Below the pieces are notes generated by a model. That model searched no databases and was not told the origin of the DNA. It saw nothing but the letters and a program-made list of their open reading frames with translations. From NCBI RefSeq assembly GCF_015355625.1, contig NZ_JACLAF010000008.1, forward strand, positions 62,001-126,000: a stretch of DNA of 64,000 bases. The letters run 5' to 3'. Of this stretch, positions 3,983-32,704 are shown one piece after another; within the stretch, counting starts at the first letter, position 1, and each line of letters starts with the position of its first letter. This stretch comes from Tamlana sp. I1. GTDB taxonomy: Bacteria > Bacteroidota > Bacteroidia > Flavobacteriales > Flavobacteriaceae. Both the position numbers and the translations under genes were made by a program.

Positions 3983-4025
3983 AAAAGGGTCGTTTAAATA
4001 GATTTTAAACGACCCTTTTTTATTT
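3983..4025. terminator. Bidirectional rho-independent terminator between nrdA and the OmpA-like gene
   Basis: A perfect 16-bp stem (arms 3983-3998 and 4004-4019) closes a 5-nt loop and is followed by a T-run. It sits between convergent genes and starts with an A-run, so it can serve both strands. Confidence 0.9.
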
Positions 4026-4048
4026 TGTTACAATAGATTTTTTAGAAC

Positions 4049-4909
4049 TTAATCTAAATCATTGTTTTCAGCAACTGCTGTATCATTATCAGCCATTAAA
4101 GCGAAAAATTTATCAATATTTGGAAGAATAATGATGCGTGTTCTTCTGTTTTTTGCTCTATTTTCAGAAGTGTCATTGTCTGCAAGCGGTTGGTAGCTAC
4201 TTCTACCCGCAGCAATCAATTTTTCTGGAGCTACATTATAACGGTCTTGTAATTTTCTAACAACCGATGTGGCTCTTAAAACACTTAAATCCCAGTTGTC
4301 AGCAATGTTTACTGTGTTTATGGTTCTAGAATCTGTGTGCCCTTCAACCATAACATCTAAACTAGGCTCAGAATTAATAACGTCAGCTAATTTTTGTAAC
4401 AAAGGATCTGCCTTCGAACTTAATTTATAGCTTGCCGTATTAAAAAGCATATCGTCTGCAATAGAAATCATAACAACAGTGCCATCAATATTAACAGCAA
4501 AATCGTCATCTGTATCTAAATCTGAATGGCTTATAACTTTTTCAAGATTATAAGCTACAGCCAAATTCATAGAATCTTTAAGCGTTTTAGCTTGACTTAA
4601 TTTTTCAGAATCAACATGCGTTAAGGTTTCACGCATCTTTACTTTAGCATCATTAGATACTACTGTGCCGTTTTCAACAACGTCAAGTTTTGTATCATTT
4701 TCAGCTTTTAAAGACATGATTTTAGAATTGTAAGTCTCTACACGCTCTTCGATTCTAGCAAATTTTGCTTCTAAATCTTCTTTTTCAACACGTGTTTTTT
4801 GCAATTCACTTTTAATCTCGCCATTTTCGTGCTCTAAAGCGATATATTTTTTCTTTGAAACACATGAAAATGTAAGGGCTACTAGTAATACAACTGAAAT
4901 TTTCTTCAT
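4049..4909 (-). CDS. OmpA-family peptidoglycan-binding lipoprotein
   Basis: This is predicted to be an outer-membrane lipoprotein tethering the envelope to peptidoglycan. The N-terminus is a lipoprotein signal peptide with lipobox residues LTFSC (Cys at about 16). A heptad-rich, charged coiled-coil follows at about residues 20-80. The C-terminal OmpA domain (about 150-275) has the peptidoglycan-binding signature VEGHTDS, ending in the NRAKNRRTRI segment that supplies the conserved Arg. The 286-residue length and the SCVSKKKY start resemble flavobacterial lipoproteins of the OmpA/MotB type. It is transcribed leftward and shares the terminator at 3983-4025. A perfect 8-bp inverted repeat (4923-4930 / 4940-4947) lies just upstream. 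Confidence 0.9.
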   Translation of the reverse strand: MKKISVVLLVALTFSCVSKKKYIALEHENGEIKSELQKTRVEKEDLEAKFARIEERVETYNSKIMSLKAENDTKLDVVENGTVVSNDAKVKMRETLTHVDSEKLSQAKTLKDSMNLAVAYNLEKVISHSDLDTDDDFAVNIDGTVVMISIADDMLFNTASYKLSSKADPLLQKLADVINSEPSLDVMVEGHTDSRTINTVNIADNWDLSVLRATSVVRKLQDRYNVAPEKLIAAGRSSYQPLADNDTSENRAKNRRTRIIILPNIDKFFALMADNDTAVAENNDLD

Positions 4910-29249: not shown

Positions 29250-29271
29250 AGAGCATTCAGTGTTTATTTTA

Positions 29272-29279
29272 TATTTTTG
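29272..29279 (+). promoter_or_regulatory. -7 element of the nrtR-like gene promoter
   Basis: TATTTTTG matches TAnnTTTG and lies directly against the operator at 29280-29294, leaving a very short 5' leader before the ATG at 29296. Binding at the operator would block both polymerase and the ribosome. Confidence 0.5.
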
Positions 29280-29294
29280 TGTGTAAACTACGCA
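29280..29294. promoter_or_regulatory. Operator site A of the NAD cassette
   Basis: TGTGTAAACTACGCA is a near-perfect inverted repeat (TGyGTA, 3-nt centre, TACrCA) ending one base before the ATG at 29296. The same core occurs in sites B and C upstream of the phosphoribosyltransferase gene. Autoregulation is the natural reading. Confidence 0.7.
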
Positions 29295-29295
29295 T

Positions 29296-29973
29296 ATGAA
29301 TAAGCAATCTATAAAACTTTCCGTCGACGCCGTTGTATTTGGTTACGAAGCAGGTAAAATATCTGTATTACTTATAAAACGTAAGTTTGAACCTTTTAAA
29401 AACCATTGGGCAATACCAGGAGGTTTTGTTCTAAATGATGAATCTTTGGAGGAGGCGGTTGAAAGGGAGCTTCAAGAAGAAACAGGAATTACCATTAACT
29501 ACCTTGAGCAATTATATACTTTTGGGGACCCAACACGAGATCCTCGAGGAAGAGTAGTGTCTATAGCTTACTTCGGTTTAGTGCGTCCAGATGCTTTTAA
29601 ATTATTTGCCTCTACAGACGCTGCAGCAGTTGAGTGGTTTAATATTCACGAATTACCAAAACTTTCATTCGATCATGGTGCCATTCTTCAAAAGGCAATC
29701 CTTCGATTACAGGCCAAAATTACATACGAACCTATAGGATTTGAATTGCTCGATAATAAATTTCCATTTTCAGATTTAGAAAAACTTTACACAACGCTTC
29801 TCGGTCGCGATATTGACCGTCGTAATTTCAGAAAGAGAATATTAGGCTTAAATGTACTTGATGAATTAGATGAAAAGTTGTCTAAAGGTTCAGGGAGACC
29901 TGCTAGTTTATTTCAATTTAATCAAAAAAGATACTTTCAACTTAAAAAGGACGGTATTGTTTTCGAAATATAA
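29296..29973 (+). CDS. nrtR: NrtR-type transcriptional regulator (Nudix domain plus winged helix)
   Basis: NrtR proteins are repressors of NAD synthesis/salvage genes and use ADP-ribose as anti-repressor. The N-terminal Nudix domain (about 8-135) has an intact Nudix box at residues 43-65: GFVLNDE, then ES-x7-RELQEETGI. The catalytic Glu residues are therefore present, unlike many NrtR members where they are lost, so ADP-ribose hydrolysis remains possible. The C-terminal ~80 residues (RDIDRRNFRKRILGLNVL, SLFQFNQKRYFQLK) form the winged-helix part. The gene heads a cluster with nicotinamide phosphoribosyltransferase and a Prs-like protein. Palindromes abut its own start and the next gene's promoter. 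Confidence 0.88.
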   Translation: MNKQSIKLSVDAVVFGYEAGKISVLLIKRKFEPFKNHWAIPGGFVLNDESLEEAVERELQEETGITINYLEQLYTFGDPTRDPRGRVVSIAYFGLVRPDAFKLFASTDAAAVEWFNIHELPKLSFDHGAILQKAILRLQAKITYEPIGFELLDNKFPFSDLEKLYTTLLGRDIDRRNFRKRILGLNVLDELDEKLSKGSGRPASLFQFNQKRYFQLKKDGIVFEI

Positions 29974-30000
29974 TCAACTAAAATACAGCTACATAAGTTC

Positions 30001-30021
30001 TTTGTGTAAATTAAACGCAAA
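30001..30021. promoter_or_regulatory. Operator site B of the NAD cassette
   Basis: The 21-nt palindrome has half-sites TTTGTGT and ACGCAAA around an A/T centre. It lies just upstream of the promoter at 30028-30058. Its centre is 54 nt (about five helical turns) from that of site C, which would allow two dimers to bind the same DNA face. Confidence 0.7.
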
Positions 30022-30027
30022 ATAATT

Positions 30028-30058
30028 TTGCGGGTAATGATTTTCTGGTTTATATTTG
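30028..30058 (+). promoter_or_regulatory. Promoter of the NAD salvage operon
   Basis: TTG at 30028-30030, a 20-nt spacer and TATATTTG at 30051-30058 match the Bacteroidota consensus exactly. The -7 element overlaps operator C, as expected for repression. Confidence 0.7.
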
Positions 30059-30076
30059 TGTAATAAATACGCAAAT
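30054..30076. promoter_or_regulatory. Operator site C of the NAD cassette
   Basis: The 23-nt palindrome has half-sites ATTTGTGTA and TACGCAAAT around an AT centre. It overlaps the -7 element and the probable transcription start, 11 nt before the ATG at 30088. Confidence 0.75.
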
Positions 30077-30087
30077 AAACAGAAATT

Positions 30088-31542
30088 ATGAATGGATTAT
30101 TATTAACAGACGGCTATAAAACAGGGCACCATCAACAATACCCTGCAGGGACAGAGGAAGTATATTCTAATTGGACTCCAAGAAGCAATAAATACGCCCC
30201 AAAAGGCTGTGATAAAGTGGTTTCATTTGGACAGCAGTATGTAGTAACATGGTTGCATGAATATTTTAATGATAATTTCTTTTCTAAGCCAAAGGAACAA
30301 GTTTGTAGTGAAATTAAAGAAGAGCTTTCTTTGTATTTAGGTGCAGATTATGATGTAATTCATTTTGAAAAATTACATGACTTACAATATCTTCCCATTC
30401 AAGTAAAATCATTGCCAGAGGGTATTGAAGTGCCTATTAGAATTCCAATGTTAACTGTTGTAAATACTGAAAAGGAGTTTTATTGGGTTACAAATTTTTT
30501 AGAAACCATTCTATCTACAATGTTATGGCAGCCTATGACGTCTGCATCTATCGCTATTTTGTACAAACGTATTTTTAAAAAATGGGCGTTGACTACCGAT
30601 AGCGAAAATCTTGCTTTTATCGATTTTCAAGGGCATGATTTTTCAATGCGAGGTATGAGTGGTCTTGAAAGTGCACTTACTTCTGGAATGGGGCATGCAA
30701 GCGTTTTTTTAGGGTCTGATACACTTCCTGTTATTAGCGGATTACGTAAGTATTACGATGCAAAAGGATTTGTTGTTGGTTCGGTAAATGCAACAGAACA
30801 CTCTGTAATGTGTGCTGGAACTAAAGAAGATGAGATAAGAACCTTTCAGAATTTAATGAAAACATATCCTAAAGGCATCTTATCAGTTGTTAGTGATACA
30901 TGGGATTTATGGAAAGTGCTTACAGAGTACCTACCAAAATTAAAAGATGAAGTGCTTGCTAGAGATGGTAAATTAGTTATTCGTCCAGATAGTGGGGATC
31001 CTATTGATATTATTTGTGGTGTAAACAGGCAAATTGGAGCTGAACTTCCACAAGAAAAAGGAGTTGTAGAATTGCTTTGGGATATTTTTGGAGGTACATT
31101 TAATAAAGAAGGGTTTAAAGTTTTAAATCCGCATATTGGAGCGATTTACGGCGATAGTATTACAACCGAAAGAGCAGAACAAATTTGCCAAAGATTGTAT
31201 GATAAAGGATTCGCTTCTACAAATGTGGTTTTAGGAATAGGCTCTTTTACTTATCAATTTAACACTAGAGATACTTTTGGTTTTGCTATGAAAGCGACAT
31301 CTGTAGTAGTTAATGGGGAACGCAGAGAAATTTTTAAAGATCCTATTACCGATGATGGGGTTAAGAAATCTGCTAAAGGATTAATTCGTATAGATTTGGT
31401 GGATGGTGAATATAAATTGATCGATCAAGTTTCTGAAGCTGAAGAAGCAAAAGGGGAATTGAAAATTATTTACAAAAATGGTGAATTTTTCAATCCCATA
31501 AATTTAAAACAAATAAGAGCGAGAATCAATGGATGTATTTAA
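30088..31542 (+). CDS. nadV: Nicotinamide phosphoribosyltransferase family protein
   Basis: NAMPT/NadV enzymes condense nicotinamide with PRPP to give NMN. The signature residues are visible: LLTDGYKTGHHQQYP at the start, HDFSMRGMSG with Asp184 (the nicotinamide-amide-binding Asp), NATEHS with the catalytic His238, and VIRPDSGDP with Arg299 and Asp301/304. The 484-residue length matches bacterial NadV. It overlaps the following HAD gene by 14 nt and the Prs-like gene comes next, so all three are one translationally coupled unit under NrtR-type operators. No NMN adenylyltransferase is in the cluster. Because the partner is a short Prs homologue, a phage-Namat-like role (nicotinamide plus ADP-ribose pyrophosphate to NAD) is an alternative to PRPP-dependent NMN synthesis. 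Confidence 0.93.
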   Translation: MNGLLLTDGYKTGHHQQYPAGTEEVYSNWTPRSNKYAPKGCDKVVSFGQQYVVTWLHEYFNDNFFSKPKEQVCSEIKEELSLYLGADYDVIHFEKLHDLQYLPIQVKSLPEGIEVPIRIPMLTVVNTEKEFYWVTNFLETILSTMLWQPMTSASIAILYKRIFKKWALTTDSENLAFIDFQGHDFSMRGMSGLESALTSGMGHASVFLGSDTLPVISGLRKYYDAKGFVVGSVNATEHSVMCAGTKEDEIRTFQNLMKTYPKGILSVVSDTWDLWKVLTEYLPKLKDEVLARDGKLVIRPDSGDPIDIICGVNRQIGAELPQEKGVVELLWDIFGGTFNKEGFKVLNPHIGAIYGDSITTERAEQICQRLYDKGFASTNVVLGIGSFTYQFNTRDTFGFAMKATSVVVNGERREIFKDPITDDGVKKSAKGLIRIDLVDGEYKLIDQVSEAEEAKGELKIIYKNGEFFNPINLKQIRARINGCI

Positions 31543-31918
31543 TTTTGATTTTTACGAGCGATTACGAAAAGATTATCAACAGCATAGAAGTCTTTTTGTA
31601 GCCTATGATTATGATAACACTGTTTTTGATTATCATAACCAAGGCATCGATTACGGGAAAATAATAGACCTCTTAAGAGTTTGTAAGTTGTTAGGATTTA
31701 CATTAATATTATTTACAGGTAATGAAGGTGAGCAATTGGAAACGATTAAGTTAGATTTAATGAAAAAGGGAATTCCATATGATTTAATTAATGAGAACCC
31801 TTTAATGAAAACTCGAAAGCCCTATTATAACATATTGTTAGACGATAGAGCGGGTTTAAAAGAGGCATATATCAATTTAAAAAAACTTACAGATGAAATA
31901 CAAAATAAACAAATTTAA
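31529..31918 (+). CDS. Small HAD-superfamily phosphatase-like protein
   Basis: The 129-residue HAD-fold protein has motif I DYDNT at residues 27-31 (nucleophile Asp27, acid Asp29). Motif II is LFTGNEG (Thr), and Lys-plus-Asp motifs III/IV are in TRKPYYNILLDDRAG. There is no cap domain, as in small nucleotide phosphatases and polynucleotide-kinase 3'-phosphatases. Its start overlaps the phosphoribosyltransferase gene by 14 nt and its end overlaps the Prs-like gene by 26 nt. This tight coupling suggests stoichiometric function in the same pathway. The substrate is unknown; a phosphorylated nicotinamide, ribose or ADP-ribose intermediate is an inference from context. Confidence 0.75.
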   Translation: MDVFNFDFYERLRKDYQQHRSLFVAYDYDNTVFDYHNQGIDYGKIIDLLRVCKLLGFTLILFTGNEGEQLETIKLDLMKKGIPYDLINENPLMKTRKPYYNILLDDRAGLKEAYINLKKLTDEIQNKQI

Positions 31919-32660
31919 AGATGGGCAAGTTGCAGCTAAAATTATTGAATCTGGCGATTTAGATATTAAAATTAGGGGTAACAGTTATGAAGATTTGTTT
32001 AGAATAGCTTCAATAAAAGAGGCTTGGGATAATGAAAATTCAACCAATAAAACTTTAACAGCTACATTAACAATTTATTGTTTAATTGGGCAGCGATCTG
32101 ATAGACGTTTTAATGATTTAGAGTCTTTTGATTTAAAAATTATTGCAAATTTTATTAATTCAATGGCTTTTGATAAAGTTGAAATATTACATCCGCATAG
32201 CAGTATTACATTGGCGTTAATTAATAATTCAAAAGAAATAAAAAACTATGAATTCGTTAAAAAAGCATATAATGCTATTGGAAACCCTGTGCTAATAAGT
32301 CCCGATGCTGGAGCTTATAAAACAACCCATGAAATTGCCGAGAAATTAGATGCAGATTTAATTCCCTCAAACAAAGTTAGGGTAAATGGTATGCCTGTTA
32401 TTAGTATACAAGGTGATGTTAATGGGAAAGATTGTTTGATTGTAGATGATTTAGCTGACGGAGGAAGAACCTTTAAGTTTTTAGCTGAAGAACTAAAAGA
32501 ACAAGGCGCTAGAAAAGTGTTTTTATATGTTACACATGCGCAATTTAATTATGGGTTTGAGGAACTTAAAACAGCAATAGATCATGTGTATTGCACGAAT
32601 AGTTATAAGGATATTGATGATGCTTTTGTAACTCAATATAAAGTTTTAATTGATGAATAG
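31893..32660 (+). CDS. Short ribose-phosphate pyrophosphokinase-like protein
   Basis: PRPP synthetases transfer pyrophosphate from ATP to ribose-5-phosphate. The PRPP-binding loop is clear: LIVDDLADGGRT at residues 182-193. The ATP-side motif RQDKK of Prs corresponds here to RSDRRF (68-73), and the Mg/His segment to LHPHSS (99-104). The catalytic flexible-loop KRR is reduced to KVR (161-163). At 255 residues it is about 60 shorter than housekeeping Prs (about 313), with simplified N-terminal ATP-loop sequences. It ends the NAD cassette. It may supply PRPP to the neighbouring phosphoribosyltransferase, or use another 5'-modified ribose such as ADP-ribose, as the phage enzyme Adps does. Sequence alone cannot decide. 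Confidence 0.8.
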   Translation: MKYKINKFKDGQVAAKIIESGDLDIKIRGNSYEDLFRIASIKEAWDNENSTNKTLTATLTIYCLIGQRSDRRFNDLESFDLKIIANFINSMAFDKVEILHPHSSITLALINNSKEIKNYEFVKKAYNAIGNPVLISPDAGAYKTTHEIAEKLDADLIPSNKVRVNGMPVISIQGDVNGKDCLIVDDLADGGRTFKFLAEELKEQGARKVFLYVTHAQFNYGFEELKTAIDHVYCTNSYKDIDDAFVTQYKVLIDE

Positions 32661-32704
32661 GTTTTGTAGAAAGGCGCTTTCTTTGAAGGAAAGCGTCTAA
32701 AACC
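32660..32704. terminator. Bidirectional terminator between the NAD cassette and the RimK operon
   Basis: An inner stem (GCGCTTTC with GAAAGCG) is nested in an outer GGTTTT (32660-32665) / AAAACC (32699-32704) pairing, in the 36-nt gap between convergent stop codons. Confidence 0.75.

Follow-up and report, generated by a model that had tools for sequence, protein, structure and literature searches.

NAD reconstitution pathway 1 (NARP1) makes nicotinamide adenine dinucleotide (NAD) with two enzymes, Adps, an ADP-ribose pyrophosphate synthase homologous to Prs, and Namat, a nicotinamide ADP-ribose transferase. The enzymes of phages SPbetaL1 (PMC12774641) and DyoEdafos are reported to make NAD from ADP-ribose. 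Chromosomal NARP1 is also known already: an Adps/Namat pair of Paenibacillus foliorum forms NAD in vitro and acts against SPARSA when tested in E. coli (Lan et al., 2026; PMC12774641). That paper cites an earlier survey by Tesson et al. and leaves the purpose of bacterial NARP1 open. Here we analysed a 64,000-nt stretch of contig NZ_JACLAF010000008.1 of Tamlana sp. I1 (the window; all coordinates are window positions, G000 is the genome and L plus a number marks a compared locus). It contains four genes on the plus strand, confirmed as open reading frames (ORFs): a Nudix/winged-helix regulator of the NrtR/AraR kind (nrtR, 29296-29973, 225 aa), a Namat-like protein (namat, 30088-31542, 484 aa), a capless haloacid dehalogenase (HAD) phosphatase-like protein (had, 31529-31918, 129 aa) and an Adps-like protein (adps, 31893-32660, 255 aa). 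By sequence comparison, this cassette is very probably a host-encoded, locally regulated NARP1 module which rebuilds NAD from its breakdown products. The Adps-like protein would transfer pyrophosphate from ATP to C1'' of ADP-ribose, giving ADP-ribose pyrophosphate (ADPR-PP), and the Namat-like protein would join ADPR-PP and nicotinamide to NAD in one step, with both products of NAD cleavage becoming NAD. A host pathway of this type had been proposed in an earlier note on this DNA, and it is supported by the clamp residues and clade of the Namat-like protein and by the clade and loop of the Adps-like protein.

The gene order and the overlaps given in that note were reproduced exactly, namat and had overlapping by 14 nt and had and adps by 26 nt. 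The identical order was found in other Flavobacteriaceae, with both overlaps kept in L007, L008, L010 and L013, and the crAss-like phage cr126_1 showed the same order, its genes overlapping by 26 and 23 nt. Because order and overlaps recur in these, the arrangement is more than chance. Like the phage NARP1 of SPbetaL1 and DyoEdafos, the cassette encodes both enzymes, as judged by clade and residue signature, in genes lying close together on one strand. It is different in its Namat-HAD-Adps order, its Nudix regulator and operator-like sites, its shorter Adps and the HAD gene between the enzymes; in DyoEdafos, RyDEP is reported to occupy the place between the two NARP1 genes where the window has HAD. 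The P. foliorum pair is chromosomal as well, but adps lies upstream of namat, the term NrtR does not occur in the text of the paper, and no HAD gene was seen in the parts available (PMC12774641). In crAss-like phages, Namat-HAD-Adps order with short overlaps was present in cr126_1 and DAC15, and adjacent Namat and HAD genes in cr111_1. The Namat proteins of these three phages were 51-54% identical to that of the window, whereas Adps was only 28-30% identical and the cr126_1 and DAC15 stretches gave no match to the Nudix regulator.

The 484-aa protein, which has the Pfam domains NAPRTase and NAMPT_N, is by its residues and clade Namat-like and not an ordinary nicotinamide phosphoribosyltransferase (Nampt). 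The reported rule for Namat selectivity combines an aromatic adenine clamp in a helix motif with a loop residue (PMC12774641). The clamp helix of the window protein is GSFTYQFNTRD (residues 385-395; 31240-31272, plus strand), with F387 and F391 at the adenine-stacking positions. The clamp loop contains K35-Y36 (30190-30195, plus strand), with K35 aligned to R40 of SPbetaL1 Namat; this is a Lys followed by an aromatic residue, one of the forms sought (Arg, or Lys/Tyr then a stacking residue), in a loop whose alignment is less sure than that of the helix. Among 45 Namat-side rows, 40 had Phe, Tyr, Trp or His at both stacking positions (38 without counting His), and none of the 13 canonical Nampt rows had such a residue at either; His at a clamp position occurs in the assayed DyoEdafos Namat. 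The five Namat-side rows without a full clamp were L094, L102, L125, L136 and PAK_P1. Furthermore, 17 of the 20 NAD-contacting residues of SPbetaL1 Namat were unchanged in the window protein, the differences being R40K, Y396F and A362S. A GG-type motif without aromatic clamp, which together with clade identifies canonical Nampt/NadV, was not found in it. The best Protein Data Bank (PDB) chains were 9w5x and 9w5w (6e-157), both consistent in sequence with SPbetaL1 Namat over the stretch compared, while the Nampt-type chain 7yqo was a far weaker match (3e-63).

The tree, which the earlier note had suggested, placed the protein with the assayed Namats. It comprised 57 rows, the alignment having 58 after the short row L167 was dropped and ICP1 being omitted from the tree, and it split 13 canonical Nampt rows from the 44 others with 100% support in the Shimodaira-Hasegawa-like approximate likelihood ratio test (SH-aLRT). 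On the canonical side were bacterial Nampt proteins and those of phages KVP40, RB43, Serratia BF and Mendera; among the 44 were the window protein and the assayed Namats of SPbetaL1 and DyoEdafos. It was a quick tree, for which the program warned of long branches, above all that of Serratia BF.

The 255-aa protein (Pfam Pribosyltran and Pribosyl_synth) is likewise Adps-like and, on sequence criteria, set apart from phosphoribosyl pyrophosphate (PRPP) synthetases. A quick tree of 60 rows separated 54 rows, including the window protein and the assayed Adps of SPbetaL1 and DyoEdafos, from six Prs-motif rows with 100% support. The six were L086, L132 and L134, which were assigned by motif, together with a gene adjoining a canonical Nampt and the Prs proteins of E. 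coli and of this genome; the alignment omitted ORFs below 200 aa and 23 copies or overlapping loci, and nine more rows were omitted before the tree. This grouping was opposite to the clustering with PRPP synthetases which the earlier note had named as speaking against a host NARP1. The AlphaFold model (predicted local distance difference test, pLDDT, 93.0) matched E. coli PRPP synthetase with a template modelling (TM) score of 0.85 by query. Since the fold is common to both enzymes, their distinction is carried by the letters. Prs-motif rows read DLHA or DLHT, mostly PDxGG, and DT[AG]GTL (DD[ML].DT[AG]GTL), while the assayed Adps and the window protein read PHS, PDxGA and a 5-phosphate loop lacking DT and ending in GTF, or RTF in the window. 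The window protein has PHS, PDAGA and, in the loop VDDLADGGRTF (32442-32474, plus strand), DGGRTF. The residues that bind ribose 5-phosphate, about which the earlier note had asked, are thus not intact by this comparison; the loop has the Adps form, D-G-G-R-T in place of the D-T-[AG]-G-T of PRPP synthetases. The DT pair was absent from all 54 Adps-side rows and present in 6/6 Prs rows. TF and HS each occurred in 52/54 Adps-side rows and 0/6 Prs rows, and the A of PDxGA in 49/54 and 2/6, respectively. This letter signature was derived in the present analysis and is not a published one.

The earlier note had pointed to the shortness of this protein and to a KVR in place of the catalytic KRR. Both features are present, but their diagnostic value did not hold. 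Only K-x-R is kept at this triplet, which reads KRR in E. coli Prs and KQR or KER in assayed Adps; KVR was rejected as a sign of altered activity, for the genome's own Prs carries KQR. The length of 255 aa is short compared with Prs (313 and 315 aa) and falls inside the Adps-side range of 252-310 aa (plus one partial row of 214).

The regulator has a Nudix domain and an NrtR winged helix (Pfam NUDIX 1.4e-21, NrtR_WHD 2.9e-22, AraR_C 4.6e-19) and scored only 151.2 of the 400 bits required by the NCBIfam NrtR equivalog. Its closest solved relative was the arabinose regulator AraR (4.6e-50), followed by 3gz5 (5.1e-31), which we take to be NrtR of S. oneidensis. NrtR/AraR-family operators are palindromic. 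As in such operons, Nudix and winged-helix parts are combined here with palindromic sites; unlike the compared AraR sequence, the window regulator has a complete Nudix box, GGFVLNDESLEEAVERELQEETGI. An operator-like site, TTTGTGTGTAAACTACGCATA (29276-29296, plus strand), reaches the ATG of nrtR and has one mismatch to TTTGYGT-N7-ACRCAAA. Two perfect copies (30001-30021 and 30055-30075, plus strand) stand in tandem before namat, 54 bp apart. With the looser TTTGYGTN7ACRCAWA and at most one mismatch, the window had 3 sites (6 matches over both strands) against 0.46 expected, and none of 100 shuffles reached 6. The tandem pair were the sole two perfect sites in the 4.04-Mb genome, another difference from known NrtR/AraR operons. 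Genome-wide, 5 sites were found with at most one mismatch and 12 with a reversed control, so single-mismatch matches elsewhere in the genome are meaningless. Other loci were compared within 250 bp upstream at up to two mismatches. Both the site before nrtR and the pair before namat recurred in L007-L010, L013 and L166; only the nrtR site was found in L011, L012, L167 and L168; and in L152, L154, L157, L163 and L164 the pair stands before adps. These palindromic predicted operators before the regulator's own gene and NAD genes fit the NrtR pattern. The regulator would repress its own gene from one site and the operon from two, and would probably be released by ADP-ribose or a relative; we infer the inducer, since the nearest solved relative is AraR.

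Neighbouring genes in relatives also point to ADP-ribose. The neighbourhoods covered were those of 16 out of 19 Namat-type loci in the phylum sample and, in the family sample, of 12 out of 31 genomes, the latter picked by identity and not at random; the clamp motif was checked in 9 of these 19 and 11 of these 12 loci. Neighbours were identified by Pfam in examples and by blastp in the remainder. In Flavobacterium-type loci, genes for NADAR, KptA/Tpt1, ADP-ribosylglycohydrolase, macro and calcineurin-like phosphoesterase proteins are among those upstream of namat and, in loci whose stretch reaches adps, among those separating it from namat. Counting NADAR, KptA, ADP-ribosylglycohydrolase and macro, 12/16 phylum and 6/12 family neighbourhoods had one or more. 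The most telling loci are L202 and L203: their Namat shares 82-83% identity with that of the window, and an ADP-ribosylglycohydrolase fills the HAD slot between namat and adps. Downstream genes encode NADAR in L204 and KptA in L205. We suggest that such neighbours would feed ADP-ribose to Adps. The ADP-ribosylglycohydrolase-centred systems described by Iyer et al. (2022; PMC9503650) similarly combine a Nudix/HTH regulator with ADP-ribosylglycohydrolase, phosphatase, NADAR, macro and vWA proteins. However, section 3.8 of that paper names neither Nampt nor Prs, and the groups it lists are actinobacteria, planctomycetes and proteobacteria. Other genes recur near namat. A nucleoside 2-deoxyribosyltransferase-like gene was seen in L011 (2086-2514), L012, L163 (5513-5965), L203, L204 and L207 (PF15891 in L011 and L163). 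In 11 of 16 Flavobacterium-type loci (L150-L165), a NadD-like gene lies downstream of namat on the opposite strand, recognised by blastp to an ORF named nadD by eye. Several Flavobacterium-type clusters contain adenylosuccinate-synthase-like and vWA-like genes.

The conservative alternative offered by the earlier note was ordinary nicotinamide mononucleotide (NMN) synthesis with a dedicated PRPP supply: the Prs-like protein would make PRPP from ribose 5-phosphate, the NAMPT-like protein NMN and NadD finally NAD, with the regulator sensing NAD status. Several observations lean this way and weigh against a host NARP1. In NCBIfam the NAMPT-like gene comes out as nicotinate phosphoribosyltransferase (542.3 bits against a cut-off of 405), and the Prs-like gene partly resembles ribose-phosphate diphosphokinase (101.1 bits, below the cut-off of 113). 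In vitro, SPbetaL1 Namat is reported to turn PRPP into NMN roughly half as fast as human Nampt does (PMC12774641), so the window Namat may use PRPP as well. NadD of this genome satisfies a model named nicotinate (nicotinamide) nucleotide adenylyltransferase, and NMN might thus be usable. Among solved structures, AraR and not NrtR is the nearer relative of the regulator. In L178 a perfect operator-like site stands in front of an ordinary Nampt gene; the regulator family therefore probably serves both routes, and the site is no proof of ADP-ribose control. ADP-ribose genes are not peculiar to Namat, being present also in 2/5 canonical Nampt neighbourhoods, a small and not clean control (ADP-ribosylglycohydrolase in L177, KptA in L180), and adps lay within the stretch in just 8/16 and 8/12 Namat neighbourhoods. 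Finally, both trees were built by a quick method and contain long branches, and for three of the six Prs rows the assignment itself came from the motif under comparison. Nevertheless, the clamp motif, the 5-phosphate loop, both trees and the ADP-ribose-handling neighbours argue against NMN synthesis. So do the phages: canonical-type genes of Serratia BF and Mendera lie near adenylyl- or nucleotidyltransferase genes, whereas the genes of JH2 and SPbetaL1 adjoin an Adps. A host NARP1 is also favoured by the PF01467 genes of the genome: the four found were NadD, CoaD, RibF and a glycerol-3-phosphate cytidylyltransferase-like gene, with no NadM or NadR among them in that search, so NMN would have to go through NadD, which might or might not accept it. 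We consider plain salvage through NMN very unlikely.

The HAD protein had no Pfam match, and its assignment rests on a predicted capless HAD fold (pLDDT 94.6) and on catalytic residues. D27, D29, K97, D105 and D106 were invariant in 48 HAD rows, T31 occurred in at least 90% of them, and T63 was invariant in the 11 rows of alignment A1. A PADLOC match to AbiEi (3.7e-4) looks spurious. The first structural neighbour was BT_0820 (2obb; Z 10.4), a protein of unknown function, followed at tied Z of 7.1-7.5 by the phosphatase parts of Pnkp1 and T4 Pnkp, a lipin and phage AfhF, an arabinose 1,5-diphosphate phosphatase. Because those after 2obb tie, fold neighbours do not settle the substrate. Association with NARP1 genes is repeated in viruses. 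From viral contigs fetched by HAD alone, 2 of 75 loci had no ORF of 100 aa, and the other 73 formed 55 clusters at 90% identity, for which the best member was counted. Both Namat-like and Adps-like genes lay within 4 kb of HAD in 31/55 clusters and at least one of them in 38/55 (in three of these only a Prs-motif gene), always on the same strand and in several orders; 17 clusters, a few at contig ends, had neither nearby. Out of 50,697 phage records just 1937 contain a Nampt or Namat gene, so chance is hardly a serious account of this association. Pfam searches on other viral HAD proteins were uninformative apart from L081 (3773-4918), where the HAD frame continues into a NUMOD4/HNH endonuclease domain.

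Most likely, the HAD protein would supply ADP-ribose by dephosphorylating an ADP-ribose phosphate; occupation of its slot by ADP-ribosylglycohydrolase in L202 and L203 suggests that the slot suits an ADP-ribose-freeing enzyme. Viral HADs beside NADAR, with neither Namat nor Adps closer than 4 kb, were observed in L139 (3950-6715), which also has a macro-type ORF, and in L140, in keeping with this role. A tentative alternative, which we hold to be less probable, is that it repairs decayed ADPR-PP as a damaged metabolite, or takes away AMP or pyrophosphate and so pulls both reactions. Three viral clusters with HAD directly beside a Prs-motif gene and no Namat (L086/L087, L132 and L134) would fit a role linked to the PRPP-type reaction, and a sugar-1,5-diphosphate phosphatase is among the structural neighbours; the ADP-ribosylglycohydrolase in the slot and the HADs beside NADAR speak for ADP-ribose supply instead. 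In bacteria, HAD as a constant member was rejected. Genome scanning with HAD as the query biases its loci, while a Namat-led family search gave seven genomes with matches of at least 78%, of which three keep HAD (G000, G398, G408) and four do not (L202-L205). HAD was not found by tblastn in the 12 family stretches (best E 0.062). In L011 (4393-5385) and L168, a 330-aa gene lies between HAD and adps; it had no confident relative, only a faint match to macrodomain AF1521 (E 0.88). In Tenacibaculum haliotis the start region is missing from the HAD frame (L012 near 4001-4351).

The same chemistry could also belong to a phage-derived anti-defence set, captured or carried on a mobile element, which counters NAD-depleting immunity rather than serving the host. 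In its favour, crAss-like phages share gene order and overlaps, and viral contig L071 was the closest outgroup of the cassette in both Namat and Adps trees. Presence is patchy. By the HAD query the cassette is rare, with one strong match in 395 Bacteroidota genomes (15 other listed genomes were weak, E 2e-10 or worse) and presence in 3/397 family and 3/6 genus genomes. Namat-like genes at 57% identity or more were commoner, being found in 20/395 genomes of the phylum sample, which also had 10 genomes with Nampt-type genes of 34-39% identity, and in 31/397 of the family sample. Sites differ among congeners as well: the lspA-fthC site of five (L169-L173) holds a gene of about 630 aa instead of the cassette, and two of these five have the cassette elsewhere. 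Window Namat is 87% identical to that of Mariniflexile versus 81% to congener G398, and these values, with patchy presence and different sites, fit gain at separate sites. On the other hand, no phage or integrase gene was recognised among the ORFs at 24.6-35.1 kb, and the cassette has its own Nudix regulator and an operator layout common to cassettes of several genera. Its flanks look housekeeping, with ileS and lspA before it, fthC and an M14-type gene after it, and a dksA/traR-like gene (by Pfam); except for the last these names were given by eye, as were gmk, the adenylosuccinate-synthase-like and vWA genes, the macro-type ORF of L139 and the transposase-like ORFs below. Recent foreign origin was not evident by composition, GC content being 32.9% in the cassette against 34.6% in the window (lowest 3.4-kb stretch 32.3%); had (28.2%) and adps (29.8%) were low, though. 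We regard an anti-defence set as unlikely. In L171 the 630-aa gene is interrupted by transposase-like ORFs, and decay of namat was seen in relatives, as a split gene in G396 and a broken one in G447 (L167, 5848-7303; L205).

For a host NARP1, the physiological trigger might be NADase defence or ADP-ribosylation turnover. The genome has a Thoeris pair (L199, 44-1971, G000 contig 17; PADLOC models ThsA 2.4e-180 and ThsB 7.1e-83), a potential source of ADP-ribose and nicotinamide. A specific tie to Thoeris was rejected: ThsA was present in 1/6 genus members and absent from the five others, the cassette was present in 3/6, and there are cassette-bearing congeners without ThsA.

Within the literature searched, three things are new: a regulated Bacteroidota form of NARP1, HAD as a partner that crAss-like phages also have, and the replacement of HAD by ADP-ribosylglycohydrolase. 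Neither a link between NARP1 and HAD nor clustering of Nampt with NADAR or KptA was found among the matches listed from open-licence papers, and for the NARP1-HAD link this includes passages of PMC9503650, PMC7824862, PMC13232231 and PMC13064858. Literature on AfhF, on arabinosyl DNA and on NrtR in Bacteroidetes gave no further lead. The cassette offers handles on the purpose of bacterial NARP1, namely a built-in regulator with an assayable inducer, operator-like sites and neighbours pointing to ADP-ribose turnover, and HAD becomes a candidate third NARP1 protein. The letters derived here separate Adps from PRPP synthetase, which are confused in annotation, many such phage genes being labelled ribose-phosphate pyrophosphokinase. 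The cassette could even belong to a wider, undescribed class, an idea we find rather doubtful at present. A Nudix repressor, Namat and Adps would form its fixed core, joined by an exchangeable ADP-ribose-freeing enzyme (ADP-ribosylglycohydrolase, NADAR, KptA with phosphatase, macro, nucleoside-deoxyribosyltransferase-like or HAD); HAD would be an ADP-ribose-1''-phosphate phosphatase, and the trio would be shared with crAss-like and other large phages. If this were true, ADP-ribosylation and RNA 2'-phosphate repair would return their ADP-ribose to NAD.

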